From the NCBI GenBank assembly GCA_011620345.1, contig WOZJ01000059.1, forward strand, positions 1 to 6,825: 6,825 nucleotides of DNA, read 5' to 3'. Of this stretch, positions 2,301-6,584 are shown piece by piece (positions within the stretch are counted from its first letter, which is position 1; the number at the start of each line of letters is the position of its first letter). The position numbers and the translations under genes are program-made. Under the pieces are notes generated by a model. That model was not told the origin of the DNA. It saw nothing but the letters and a program-made list of their open reading frames with translations, and did no database searches. Source of the DNA: Nitrospirota bacterium (GTDB lineage Bacteria > UBA2233).

Positions 2301-2305
2301 CTCCT
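2301..2305 (-). promoter_or_regulatory. Ribosome binding site of the aldo/keto reductase gene
   Basis: AGGAG lies six bases before the ATG at 2294 and overlaps the TAG stop (2304-2306) of the phosphatase gene. It fixes the start at 2294 rather than at the second Met (2282), and suggests translational coupling of the two genes. Confidence 0.75.
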
Positions 2306-3152
2306 ATGGAGTTGGATCGTAGGCTTCAAAAGCGACGACGACGAGCGTGATGTTGTCGTGTCCCCCCCGGGTGTTGGCCATGTTTACAAGCTCCGTGGCG
2401 ATAAGGGGAGCAACCCTGAGCCTGTTGGCCACGTCGGCAACCTCGCCCGGAGGAACGAGATCGCTAAGGCCGTCCGAACAAAGGACCAGGCAGCCCTCTC
2501 TAGGGATCTCGAACACGCCCGTTTCGGGCTCGATCGTATCGGGGGGCGAGATGCCGAGCGCCTGGAGAAGCACGCCCGTCGCCGGGTCTTCCTGCTCGTG
2601 GGCTAGCTTTGTAGCCCCTGTTTCGTCTACCCAAAGCATGGCAGAATCTCCGACGTTCAAAAAAACGACCGCATCGCCAACGACAAGCGCCAACACGAGC
2701 GTCGTCCCCATCATCCAAGCAGGCCTTCTGCGCCCCAAAGCAAGGTTTTCTTTGTAAATCTTGTAGGCAAGCCCAAAGCAAATCCTTCGGATGCGGTTAC
2801 CCACGCAGGCTGGAAGGCCCGACTCTGGGCCTTTGAATACATCGAGGGGCTTAAGGAGGGCATCGAGCAAGTGACGCTGAAGCTTGTCCGCTACCAAAGG
2901 CCGGCTTGGTTCAGTGTCACCGAGCAGCGGGAACACCTCGGAAACCGGAAGGCCCTCTAGGTACTCCTGCCCCAGAATGGCGGCGCGCTCACCCTCTGGG
3001 TGCCCCCCAAGCCCGTCTAGCACGGCGTAGAGCCCAAGCGGCAGGATACGGCTACCGTCGTCGAGCGTTCGAATGACGTATCGGTCCTCATTTTTAGCCC
3101 TGCGCTTGCCTTGGTCTGTCAAGCAGCTCGTCTGGATGCGAAACCGTTTCAT
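2304..3152 (-). CDS. PP2C-family serine/threonine protein phosphatase
   Basis: This is a 282-residue PPM/PP2C metal-dependent phosphatase catalytic domain, about the usual length for stand-alone bacterial PrpC/Stp-type enzymes. It has no membrane segment or added sensor domain, so it should be cytosolic. The Mg/Mn-binding and catalytic motifs are all visible: RAKNEDR (18-24), DGLGGH (46-51), MGTT (148-151), VGDS (167-170), CSDGLSD (225-231) and GGHDNIT (263-269). One oddity is Ala171 where the common GDSR motif has Arg. The family removes phosphate from Ser/Thr, usually against Hanks-type kinases; no kinase gene lies in the window, so the target is unknown. The ATG overlaps the TGA of the BioB-like gene in an ATGA arrangement (3149-3152), and the local SD is weak. 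Translation therefore probably depends on the upstream gene. The reductase gene follows after 9 bases. Confidence 0.92.
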   Translation of the reverse strand: MKRFRIQTSCLTDQGKRRAKNEDRYVIRTLDDGSRILPLGLYAVLDGLGGHPEGERAAILGQEYLEGLPVSEVFPLLGDTEPSRPLVADKLQRHLLDALLKPLDVFKGPESGLPACVGNRIRRICFGLAYKIYKENLALGRRRPAWMMGTTLVLALVVGDAVVFLNVGDSAMLWVDETGATKLAHEQEDPATGVLLQALGISPPDTIEPETGVFEIPREGCLVLCSDGLSDLVPPGEVADVANRLRVAPLIATELVNMANTRGGHDNITLVVVAFEAYDPTP

Positions 3153-4144
3153 GCCTGGAGTGGGTCAAGCCCGAGCGCCCGAACCATCCGAAGCGTCCTT
3201 GAGCCCTCTTGCCCCTTTGCCGTAAGGTAATCACCCAAGAAGGCCGAATCGGCAACTAGAAACCCAAGAGGTTCGAGCACGCCTAAGTGCAGATCCCTTC
3301 CCGCCGCCAAACGAACCTCGGTAGCAGGCAAAAGAAGGCGGAGAACGCAGAGCACGCGAAGGCATTGTTCTGGCTTAAGAGACGGCGCACCCTCCAGCGG
3401 CGTTCCCGGGATGGGGATCAAAAAGTTCACGGGGATCGCGTCCGGCTTGAGTTCTGCAAGGTCTTGTAGCAACCCCGCGAGCTCTTTTAGGCTCTCGCCT
3501 AGCCCCACGATGAACCCGCAGCACAGCTCGAGCCCTCTTTCCTTGACGCGCCTTGCCATTTGGAGCCTGTCTTCGTAGGTATGGCTCGAGCAGATCCTTG
3601 GGTAGACCTCTCTTGGGGCGTTGAGGTTGTGGTTGATGCGGTCGAGCCCGCAGGCCTTTAAAAAATCGAGCGCGGCATCGTCTAGGAAGCCCGAGGAAAA
3701 GCAGGTCTTGAGGTCGAGATCGCGCGCCATGAAAGAAACGGCCTCCCCAATCGCTCGCAAATCAGCCTCTATGGCACCCCGCCTGGCGATCGCCATGCAA
3801 AAACGGTAAGCTCCGCTTGCCTGCGCCTCTTTGGCGCTAGCGATGAGCTCGCTTGCCTTGAGCGGCGCCGAGGGCATAACGACCGTAGGAAACTTGGAAG
3901 ACTGGCCGCAGTAGGAGCAATCCTCGCTGCAACCGCCCTTCTTGGCGTTTTCTAAGACATGGAGCTTGAAGCTGTTCCCAAAATGCGCCCTCCTTAACCG
4001 GATAGCCTCTTTGAGGATGGGCTTGAGCGGCGTTTTTGGGTCCAGGAGGGCTTCGATAAAGCTGGTGCCGAGGGCCGGAATCGAACCGGCACGGAGGAAC
4101 CCTCCGAGGGATTTTAAGTCCCTTGCGTCTACCTGTTCCGCCAC
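3149..4144 (-). CDS. bioB: Biotin-synthase-like radical SAM protein; reading frame starts inside tRNA-Leu
   Basis: From about residue 40 on, the product resembles biotin synthase, which inserts sulfur into dethiobiotin using a SAM-bound [4Fe-4S] cluster and a sacrificial [2Fe-2S] cluster. The radical SAM motif is C72, C76, C79 (GCSEDCSYCGQS). Candidate [2Fe-2S] ligands are C116 (RFCMA), C148 (TCFSSG), C208 (LCCGFIVG) and R278 (RLAAGR). Also present are the NHNL motif at 171-174 and HTYEDRL at 188-194. N175 replaces the Asp found after NHNL in E. coli BioB (Asp155), and VADS replaces the usual GANS near the C-terminus. Residues 1-27 are a translation of tRNA-Leu; the real protein may be about 300 residues. 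The GTG at 4144 is the only ATG/GTG/TTG in frame before the core domain and has AGGAGG 8 bases upstream. Otherwise a CTG or ATC start after the tRNA would be needed. No other biotin genes are nearby, so the exact reaction is tentative. Confidence 0.82.
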   Translation of the reverse strand: MAEQVDARDLKSLGGFLRAGSIPALGTSFIEALLDPKTPLKPILKEAIRLRRAHFGNSFKLHVLENAKKGGCSEDCSYCGQSSKFPTVVMPSAPLKASELIASAKEAQASGAYRFCMAIARRGAIEADLRAIGEAVSFMARDLDLKTCFSSGFLDDAALDFLKACGLDRINHNLNAPREVYPRICSSHTYEDRLQMARRVKERGLELCCGFIVGLGESLKELAGLLQDLAELKPDAIPVNFLIPIPGTPLEGAPSLKPEQCLRVLCVLRLLLPATEVRLAAGRDLHLGVLEPLGFLVADSAFLGDYLTAKGQEGSRTLRMVRALGLDPLQA

Positions 4145-4150
4145 CCCGGC
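4063..4150 (-). tRNA. tRNA-Leu (anticodon UAA)
   Basis: This is a class II tRNA of 88 bases including encoded CCA (4063-4065). The acceptor stem pairs GCCGGGG with CCTCGGC, with one G-U pair, followed by discriminator A at 4066. The anticodon stem is AGGGA/TCCCT around the loop CTTAAAA, giving anticodon TAA at 4114-4116. A long variable arm, CGGAGG-GTT-CCTCCG, and a T arm, GCCGG-TTCGATT-CCGGC, mark it as leucine type. It lies 19 bases after the nfnB stop and has no promoter of its own that I can see, so it is probably cut out of the nfn operon transcript. It shares sequence with the 5' end of the BioB-like reading frame. Confidence 0.96.
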
Positions 4151-4152
4151 AA

Positions 4153-4158
4153 CCTCCT
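4153..4158 (-). promoter_or_regulatory. Perfect Shine-Dalgarno immediately before tRNA-Leu
   Basis: AGGAGG (followed by T) lies two bases outside the 5' end of tRNA-Leu and 8 bases before the GTG at 4144 inside that tRNA. The spacing is the same as for nfnA and nfnB in this window. It is the only good SD in phase with the BioB-like frame, and it would be separated from that frame once RNase P makes the tRNA 5' end. Whether ribosomes use it is inference. Confidence 0.6.
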
Positions 4159-4169
4159 GTTTTGTTTGT

Positions 4170-5612
4170 CTACACGGCGGCGTATTGGAGCCTGAGCCCC
4201 TTTTTGGCCACGAGATAGTCGTGAATCCCCTTGGCTGCGACCTTTGCCTGCCCCATTGCAGAAATAACGGTCGAACCTCCCGTGATGACGTCCCCCGCCG
4301 CGAACAACCCGGGGATAGAACTCATGCCCGTTTCGGTGTTCACGACGACGATGCCGCTTTTGGTCAGTTCGAGCCCGGGCGTCGAGCGGGTAACCAAGGG
4401 GTTGATATCGCAGCCGAGCGCTATGATCGCCGTATCACACTCTATGGTCCAGTTGGAACCCTCGATCGGGATGGGCCGGCGCCTACCCGAGCTATCCGGC
4501 TCCCCCAATGCCATTTCCATGACCTCGATCGCCTTGAGCTTGTAATGGCTATCCCCGATGAATCGAACAGGGCTTGTCAAAAAGCACGTCTTGACGCCCT
4601 CTTCTTCGGCGTGATGGAGCTCTTCTACCCTGCAGGGCGCCTCGGCCCGTGAGCGCCTGTATACGAGCGTGACCGCCTCGGGCTGAAGCCGGATAGAAGT
4701 TCTGGCCCCGTCCATGGCCGCGTCGCCAGCGCCGATGACGACGATGTTCTTTCCGTACTCGATCGGCGTTGCATAGGCCGGGAACAAATCCGCTCGCATG
4801 AGGTTGAGCCTCGTGAGCCATTCATTGGCCGAGTAGACGCCCACAAGGTTCTCGCCCGGGATTCCGAGCATTTTTGGAAGCCCCGCACCCGTTCCTAGCA
4901 AGATGGAATCGTAGCCCATCTTAAAGATATCTTCGATACTCAGGGCCTTGCCGATAACGGCGTCTTTAAATATCTCCACGCCAAGGTATTCGAGCGCCTT
5001 CAGCTCGGACTCGATGACGTCCGAGGGGAGGCGAAACCGCGGGATGCCATAGTAGAGAACACCGCCAGGCTTGTGCATCGCTTCAAAAAGCGTCACCCGA
5101 TGGCCCAAGCGGGCAAGCTCGAAGGCACCCGTGATGCCGGCCGGGCCGGACCCCACGATTGCCACGCTGCAACCGGTCGAAGCCCCCGGCTTGGGGAGCT
5201 CCACACGCCCGGAGAGCCTCTCGAAATCGGCCACGAACCGCTCGATCTTACCGATGCTTACGGGCTCGGTGCGCCTTCCGATCACGCAGCTCTGTTCGCA
5301 TTGCTTTTCTTGAGGGCAGACCCTTCCGCATATGGCGGGCAAGATGTTCTTTTCTTTCAAAACGTGGGCCGCCTCGAGAATCGCGCCTTCGCCCACCAAT
5401 TTGACAAACCTAGGGATGTCGATGCCGACAGGGCAGCCCGCAACACAGGAAGGCTTCGGGCATTCGATGCAACGGAGCGCCTCCTCCTTGGCCTCCTCGA
5501 GGCCAAACCCAAGGCACACCTCCTCGAAATTTCGGCTTCGAACCCCTGGCGATTGCTCTGGCGCCTTGTGGCGCGGAATCTTGATGCGATCTTTTATGCT
5601 TAGGCCTGACAT
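4170..5612 (-). CDS. nfnB: NfnB: large subunit of electron-bifurcating NADH-dependent ferredoxin:NADP+ oxidoreductase
   Basis: This 480-residue protein belongs to the GltD-like flavoprotein family, also annotated as glutamate synthase small chain or sulfide dehydrogenase alpha subunit (SudA). In Nfn it holds two [4Fe-4S] clusters and the bifurcating FAD, and exchanges electrons with ferredoxin and NADP(H). The N-terminal cluster region has C48, C51, C56, C60 (CIECPKPSCVAGC) and C95, C99, C105, C109. The FAD-binding motif VGSGPAG is at 153-159 and FE (176-177) ends that beta-alpha-beta unit. The NADPH site is IGAGDAAMD (293-301) with YRRSRAE (318-324), whose arginines suit the 2'-phosphate. 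GDVITGGSTVISAMGQ closes the FAD site. The ATG at 5612 overlaps the nfnA end by 13 bases and has AAAGGAG eight bases upstream. Pairing with nfnA argues against a true glutamate synthase subunit, since no gltB large subunit is present. Confidence 0.92.
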   Translation of the reverse strand: MSGLSIKDRIKIPRHKAPEQSPGVRSRNFEEVCLGFGLEEAKEEALRCIECPKPSCVAGCPVGIDIPRFVKLVGEGAILEAAHVLKEKNILPAICGRVCPQEKQCEQSCVIGRRTEPVSIGKIERFVADFERLSGRVELPKPGASTGCSVAIVGSGPAGITGAFELARLGHRVTLFEAMHKPGGVLYYGIPRFRLPSDVIESELKALEYLGVEIFKDAVIGKALSIEDIFKMGYDSILLGTGAGLPKMLGIPGENLVGVYSANEWLTRLNLMRADLFPAYATPIEYGKNIVVIGAGDAAMDGARTSIRLQPEAVTLVYRRSRAEAPCRVEELHHAEEEGVKTCFLTSPVRFIGDSHYKLKAIEVMEMALGEPDSSGRRRPIPIEGSNWTIECDTAIIALGCDINPLVTRSTPGLELTKSGIVVVNTETGMSSIPGLFAAGDVITGGSTVISAMGQAKVAAKGIHDYLVAKKGLRLQYAAV

Positions 5613-6445
5613 GGGCTCTGCTCCTTTTGTTTGAGGTACTCCTCCAGCGCCATACGCTCTTTTCCGGCGTACATCCGCTGCCTGGCAACAAGCTCGTCGT
5701 AGTCTACGTCATGGCCGCTGAATTCCGGCCCGTGGATGCATGAAAACTTCGTCTCCCCGCCCACCGTGACCCGGCAGGCCCCACACATGCCCGTACCGTC
5801 CACCATCAGCGTGTTGAGGCTGACCATCGTCGGGATTCCGATAGGTTTTGTCATGTCAGAAACGGCCCGCATCATCGGAACCGGCCCGACGGCGACGACG
5901 TAATGCACCGGCTCATCCTCGAGAATGCCCTTCAGCGCGTCCGTTACGAGCCCTTGCATGCCGGCGCTGCCGTCGTTGGTCGTAATAAGCAATCTATCAA
6001 GAGCCGCTTCAAGCCTGTCCGCGAAGATGAGCAACTCTTTCGTTCTGGCCCCGACGATGCCGTAAACCTTGTTGCCTAGCTCTTTGAGCTTCCTTCCCAT
6101 CGGGAGGATCGCCCCGGACCCATAGCCTCCGCCGATCAGAACGCACGTTCCAAACTTTTCGGCGTGGGTTGGAACCCCCAAGGGCCCTACGACGTCCAAA
6201 AAGCTATCCCCTGCTTGCAAGTCGTAGATCTCGTAGCTCGTCCTGCCGACGGCCTGTACAATCAGCTCGAGCGTGCCGGCCTCGCGGTCAAACCCGCAGA
6301 TGGACAGGGGAATCCGCTCGCCCTTTTCGTCCACCCGGACGATTACGAACTGGCCCGGCTGCACCTTTCGGGCAACCAACGGGGCCTCAATTTTAATATG
6401 GACCGTTTTTGGTGCAATCTCTTGGCGTGTAAAGATTTGGAACAC
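5600..6445 (-). CDS. nfnA: NfnA: small FAD/[2Fe-2S] subunit of NADH-dependent ferredoxin:NADP+ oxidoreductase
   Basis: This 281-residue ferredoxin-NADP reductase-like subunit (also called SudB) oxidises or reduces NAD(H) at its FAD and passes electrons through an unusual [2Fe-2S] cluster to NfnB. The FAD-binding domain covers about 1-98, with RIPLSI (44-49) and VGRTS (66-70). The pyridine-nucleotide domain follows, with IGGGYGSGAILP (104-115); Tyr108 stands where Val is common. VGPVPMMRAV is at 187-196. The C-terminal cluster motif is VDGTGMCGACR, with D216, C221 and C224, then C236 (FSCIHGPEF); the Asp plus three Cys set matches known Nfn. I chose the GTG at 6445. It has GAAGGAG eight bases upstream and gives the normal family length, whereas longer in-frame starts run into the promoter. 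The TAA lies inside the nfnB start region, so the two genes are translationally coupled. Confidence 0.92.
   Translation of the reverse strand: MFQIFTRQEIAPKTVHIKIEAPLVARKVQPGQFVIVRVDEKGERIPLSICGFDREAGTLELIVQAVGRTSYEIYDLQAGDSFLDVVGPLGVPTHAEKFGTCVLIGGGYGSGAILPMGRKLKELGNKVYGIVGARTKELLIFADRLEAALDRLLITTNDGSAGMQGLVTDALKGILEDEPVHYVVAVGPVPMMRAVSDMTKPIGIPTMVSLNTLMVDGTGMCGACRVTVGGETKFSCIHGPEFSGHDVDYDELVARQRMYAGKERMALEEYLKQKEQSPCQA
5621..5627 (-). promoter_or_regulatory. Ribosome binding site of nfnB
   Basis: AAAGGAG inside the end of nfnA, eight bases before the nfnB ATG at 5612. It supports that start and efficient coupled translation of the two subunits. Confidence 0.75.
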
Positions 6446-6453
6446 CGCATGGA

Positions 6454-6460
6454 CTCCTTC
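6454..6460 (-). promoter_or_regulatory. Ribosome binding site that decides the nfnA start
   Basis: GAAGGAG ends eight bases before the GTG at 6445. A nearby ATG (6448-6450) is out of frame and only three bases from the SD, so GTG is preferred. The in-frame TTG at 6574 would put the -10 box inside the coding sequence and is rejected. Confidence 0.8.
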
Positions 6461-6554
6461 TGGCGGGTTTGGTTCAAATGGGGTAGAATGAACTGCCCTA
6501 TTAAATAAAGAAACGATGGCATTGGCCTTTGCAATATTTTGAGATTTTGAGTTT

Positions 6555-6584
6555 ATTGTAGCAGGTCTGTCCAACCCTTGACAA
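6555..6584 (-). promoter_or_regulatory. Sigma70-type extended -10 promoter of the nfn operon
   Basis: On the minus strand, TTGTCA (6579-6584) and TACAAT (6555-6560) are separated by 18 bases, with TGC directly before the -10 box (extended -10). Transcription should begin near 6548, leaving a leader of about 100 bases before the nfnA GTG. The leader is AT-rich at its start, with a tandem CTCAAAAT, and I see no convincing riboswitch or attenuator in it. It is the best candidate promoter for the whole nfnA-to-reductase unit. Confidence 0.65.

Follow-up and report, generated by a model that had tools for sequence, protein, structure and literature searches.

The question raised by this locus is where translation of a biotin synthase gene begins when its reading frame runs, on the same strand, through a tRNA gene. 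The window, a stretch of 6,825 nucleotides from a Nitrospirota bacterium, carries on its minus strand, in this order, gltA (NADPH-dependent glutamate synthase/NfnB-like, 4170..5612; TIGR01316, 550 bits), a 19-nt spacer that follows the gltA stop and ends in AGGAGGTT, a tRNA-Leu gene with the anticodon UAA and an encoded CCA (4063..4150; ARAGORN, Rfam 57.1 bits), the bioB frame of 331 codons plus stop (3149..4144) and a gene for a PP2C-type phosphatase (2304..3152; PF13672), the last two being taken from the list of open reading frames. The phosphatase ATG overlaps the bioB stop codon (ATGA), and the phosphatase is likely translationally coupled to bioB. No local sigma-70 promoter or terminator was found by consensus around the tRNA, and gltA, tRNA and bioB are probably co-transcribed.

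As the original prediction had it, the bioB frame is open from a GTG at 4142..4144 through the tRNA into the radical SAM domain, and all positions were confirmed. The GTG, the proposed start codon, occupies tRNA positions 7-9 (the last acceptor-stem base, U8 and G9). The frame covers 82 of the 88 tRNA nucleotides, leaving tRNA bases 1-6 outside the ORF, and codons 1-27 consist entirely of tRNA sequence. The predicted Shine-Dalgarno (SD) sequence AGGAGG (4153..4158) is likewise present; it lies 2 nt beyond the tRNA 5' end, with an ordinary spacing of 8 nt to the GTG. Between the tRNA 3' end and the conserved core there is indeed no in-frame ATG, GTG or TTG: the next canonical in-frame start is an ATG at codon 90, 273 nt from the tRNA 5' end, which falls behind the CxxxCxxC cysteines (residues 72, 76 and 79). 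The GTG at 4144 is thus the sole canonical in-frame start ahead of the radical-SAM motif. A GTG at positions 7-9 is inherent to many tRNA-Leu genes and alone not surprising, while the GTG, the SD and a long open frame together are unusual. In a survey of the leaders of 90 distinct tRNA loci (source genome, sister species and others), a GGAGG in the 20 nt upstream occurred only at the tRNA-Leu(UAA) of the source genome and its sister, and at none of the 88 other loci examined. A peptide search of 192 genomes found the tRNA-coded peptide in a long stop-free frame (390 codons) only in these same two, and, among the tRNA-Leu(UAA) genes compared, about half had an in-frame stop or another frame at the matching place.

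The sister species, Nitrospirae bacterium UBA2233, is the nearest relative, a different species of the same genus at 96% amino-acid identity. It keeps the tRNA, the stop-free frame, an identical GTG and, in the form GGGAGG, the core of the SD, so that both features whose conservation had been proposed as a check are found in an orthologue; an ordinary ATG after the tRNA, named at the outset as evidence against a start within it, does not occur in this one close relative. An assembly error or chimera was ruled out, since the overlap is present in assemblies of two different species. Two differences between the species lie inside the tRNA. Both are synonymous in Gly codons of the bioB frame, and both sit in the variable arm with pairing kept (A-U to G-U; one loop base). 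Two changes are too few to serve as a test, yet they would fit a doubly used sequence. The lineage is sampled by these two species only, and they are close (bioB dS 0.12).

The same gltA/tRNA-Leu(UAA) order was found in two genomes of another family (G012 and G160), where the leaders carry no SD. In G012 a pheS-like gene follows the tRNA with its own ATG a few bases past it (L176, 1264-1378). These arrangements are naturally read as an older gltA/tRNA-Leu(UAA) pair behind which bioB arrived later, the SD having arisen, or having been kept, only where bioB needs it. Insertion of the tRNA into an older bioB leader is disfavoured, as another family has the gltA/tRNA order with no bioB behind it and bioB therefore probably joined the tRNA. 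The gltA/tRNA-Leu(UAA) order is also common to distant lineages.

The original prediction had named as an alternative a gene that lost its start on coming behind the tRNA; such a gene would now be decaying, with the SD as a relic. This would account for the lack of an ordinary start codon in bioB, and the gltA/tRNA order does predate the link to bioB. However, the product matches the TIGR00433 bioB family at 311.2 bits (curated equivalog cut-off 225; NCBIfam) and contains the Radical_SAM and BATS (PF06968) domains (Pfam). C72, C76 and C79 of CxxxCxxC are invariant in 26 aligned proteins, and the Cys and Arg residues of the RFCM, KTCF, LCCG and AAGRD segments align with the [2Fe-2S] ligand positions of E. 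coli BioB (1R30), which we take to be C97, C128, C188 and R260. A model of all 331 residues superposes on 1R30 with a Z of 41.9 (41.9-44.3 across three solved BioBs). No second bioB was found in the source genome (1.8 Mb, 96.8% complete), while bioA, bioF and bioD all score above their cut-offs; the copy at 3149-4144 is therefore, as far as gene content tells, probably the one the cell uses. Compared with the sister, bioB has a dN/dS of 0.18 (dS 0.12, dN 0.022), within the range of its neighbour genes (0.06-0.21), and judged by these substitutions it is under purifying selection. This value contradicts a gene that lost its start and led us to reject a pseudogene; together with the intact frame, the retained motif cysteines and the position of a sole bioB alongside the rest of the pathway, it makes decay after the loss of a start very improbable.

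We then considered where a BioB of normal length should begin. The GTG at 4144 lies 71 residues before the cysteine motif, against 42 for an ATC at 4057 and 38 for a CTG at 4045 (bioB codon 34). The closest among 30 more distant relatives mostly start 63-69 residues ahead of the cysteines, and L005 and L006 have one ATG only in the N-terminal stretch, at 66. In these 30 the start was taken as the ATG (else GTG or TTG) that comes closest to a distance of 64 residues from CxxxCxxC, with distances of 45-80 allowed; this range was our choice, and the comparison with solved structures is independent of it. An AlphaFold model of the 331 residues with 25 relatives reached a mean pLDDT of 92, with low values for residues 1-20 and a helix at 23-34 that straddles the tRNA end. 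In the superpositions, residue 4 of E. coli BioB (1R30) corresponds to model residue 20, residue 1 of B. obeum BioB (8VCW) to residue 9, and residue 11 of V. parvula BioB to residue 1. The ordered N-termini of the solved BioBs thus map to model residues 1-20, all of them tRNA-coded, and a BioB of normal length would accordingly have to begin inside the tRNA. Since model confidence is low for residues 1-20, the fold would be complete with any start as far in as about residue 20.

Use of a non-canonical start codon located at the tRNA 3' end or beyond it, for example on a nearly leaderless RNA left by excision of the tRNA, would avoid initiation at the GTG. The only near-cognate codons in frame there are the ATC at 4057, the CTG at 4045 and an ATT in the T-loop, and a start at the ATC would keep most of helix 1. 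However, the sequence shows no SD ahead of the CTG, the ATC or the ATT, and the ATC and CTG starts, 38-42 residues before the cysteines, would give a protein shorter than the relatives (with starts chosen within 45-80) and the solved BioBs. Such a start would also leave the unique AGGAGG unexplained, and leaderless initiation prefers AUG. We therefore regard this explanation as unlikely. The predicted start at a GTG inside tRNA-Leu is, by contrast, supported by the sister species, the N-terminal length of the relatives, the solved structures, selection, the biotin pathway and the unique SD. From these comparisons we infer that translation very probably starts inside the tRNA, and we put the probability that it starts at the GTG at 4144 at roughly 0.8.

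The tRNA itself appears functional in sequence and shape. It has a cloverleaf, the UAA anticodon, a long variable arm and CCA, is intact in both species, and scores much like the other long-arm tRNAs of the genome. The remaining tRNA-Leu genes found read UAG, CAG and CAA; the overlapping tRNA is the only UAA one in an inventory of 43 tRNAs from an assembly that is 96.8% complete, so that a missed tRNA-Leu(UAA) copy is possible. UUA codons are used at 5.7 per 1000 in the genome, and tRNA-Leu(UAA) is probably indispensable. The genome's tRNA set yielded no tRNA-Leu with a GAG anticodon, even though leucine is most often encoded by CTC and CTT; the UAG tRNA may serve the whole CUN box, or a GAG gene may sit in an assembly gap.

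If bioB is translated from the GTG at tRNA bases 7-9 using the AGGAGG outside the tRNA, the N-terminal 27 residues of BioB would be encoded by the tRNA, the first 20 or so probably forming a flexible tail and the last few beginning the first helix. Only the unprocessed operon RNA could then serve as template for the GTG start, because RNase P cleavage at 4150 would part the SD from the GTG and make the cut RNA unreadable from it. One RNA copy would thus probably yield tRNA or BioB, hardly both. As fast cutting is usual for tRNA precursors, little mRNA would remain, which counts against such a start. The SD and the GTG would emerge from the polymerase about 80 nt ahead of the acceptor 3' strand, and a ribosome might load while that strand is still untranscribed, so that BioB would be made from transcripts on which the tRNA has not yet folded. 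Such a brief loading window could give a low, steady output of BioB without any extra factor, and a low level of BioB probably suffices for the cell.

A further element was noticed post hoc. CCTCCTG at 4043..4049 (minus strand), which spans bioB codons 32-34, is a perfect 7-bp complement, across the tRNA, of CAGGAGG at 4153-4159. By minimum free energy and pairing probability, the SD is predicted to pair with this CCUCCUG in both species with a probability of 0.99. The closed acceptor stem would bring CCUCCUG beside the SD, and folding of the precursor alone might then silence translation before the RNase P cut by hiding the SD. In the sister, three changes in the two arms leave the helix in place and lengthen it from 7 to 9 bp counting G-U. 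CCTCCTG is kept in 2% of synonymous variants of codons 32-34 and is present in 0.3% of genome coding windows, and pairing of the SD to the downstream arm was equally strong in 0.3% of synonymous controls. The fold energy of the precursor is unexceptional, with 16% of controls as low, and among about 41 other tRNAs of the genome one has an equal 7-bp match between leader and trailer. As a regulatory element, this predicted clamp is suggestive only.

Were the clamp to act, the tRNA could be a processing-controlled switch for BioB, in which early loading would give BioB, whereas closure of the tRNA and the clamp would silence bioB and the phosphatase and commit the RNA to RNase P. In that case a working tRNA would act as the sensor of a riboregulator and be its product in the off state. 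Both the switch and this description of it are tentative and, on the present evidence, improbable. Control of BioB and the phosphatase by the demand for tRNA charging, as proposed, has no direct support. A GTG start without regulation, in which the arrangement results from neutral compaction and the levels of tRNA and BioB follow from fixed competing rates, has in our estimate a little better than an even chance. We know of no link between biotin and leucine tRNA, the clamp statistics are modest and TTA is only mildly over-represented in bioB, although the complementarity to the SD was kept and lengthened in the sister despite the changes in its arms, which speaks against an unregulated start. 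With regard to leucine codons, bioB has 5 TTA codons in 331 (15 per 1000 vs 5.7 in the genome), where about 1.9 would be expected, and one of them is formed by the tRNA anticodon loop itself. Because this is the sole UAA tRNA found, the TTA codons of bioB would be read only by the tRNA that bioB overlaps. Feedback on bioB through these codons was considered as well; with so small an excess, one codon of which is forced, the case for it is weak.

Bacterial tRNA/mRNA operons such as tRNA-tufB yield a tRNA and a protein from one transcript. There the coding region and its ribosome site come after the tRNA and both products are possible from one molecule, unlike in the arrangement proposed for bioB. 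Closer to it are the tRNA-Sec genes (selC) predicted to lie wholly inside the 3' end of selB in Alphaproteobacteria, with partial selC/selB overlap in Gammaproteobacteria and a Nitrospirae lineage; this was presented as the first bacterial protein gene with a nested tRNA, and tRNA and full protein were proposed as alternatives (Mukai 2021, PMC8124441). In both cases a tRNA gene would be translated in frame from its own strand, alternative products are proposed, and the evidence is bioinformatic only. However, selC lies at the 3' end of a normally started gene, whose product it extends C-terminally, whereas the bioB tRNA lies at the 5' end and would supply the start codon; and tRNA-Sec is tied to its own elongation factor, while here a canonical tRNA-Leu meets a metabolic enzyme. 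Of the features of nested tRNAs of the selB/selC type (Mukai 2021), an in-frame overlap conserved between species is found in bioB, but the tRNA is not entirely inside the ORF, six of its bases lying outside. PMC8124441 also cites a mitochondrial case from Armadillidium, a tRNA-Lys inside cox1. Like the bioB tRNA it lies in direct orientation within a coding region, but it belongs to a compact organelle genome, is fully internal and supplies no start codon. The tRNA-Leu(UAA) of Streptomyces, bldA, is the sole reader of UUA and has a regulatory role (PMC2000904). It acts in trans via rare TTA codons, whereas TTA is no rare codon in the genome studied here and the link proposed for bioB is an overlap in cis. 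A narrow literature search found no report of a bacterial gene that starts inside a tRNA and nothing closer than PMC8124441.

If the GTG start is correct, the same bases of one strand encode a probably indispensable tRNA as well as the start codon and N-terminus of an enzyme. The locus would then clearly exemplify initiation of translation within a tRNA gene, and the competition of ribosome loading with tRNA folding or with RNase P could be tested on it directly. Gene-calling programs usually do not allow a coding region to overlap a tRNA and may truncate or miss genes of this kind.

Elsewhere in the window, gltA forms the second gene of an NfnAB/SudAB-like pair (FAD/NAD-binding subunit, then gltA; 4170-6574), which shares the strand of the tRNA and bioB and lies upstream of them. 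A ferredoxin-like ORF (453-908), whose second 4Fe-4S motif is seemingly cut short, is adjoined by a short cytochrome-like ORF with CxxCH motifs (43-408).
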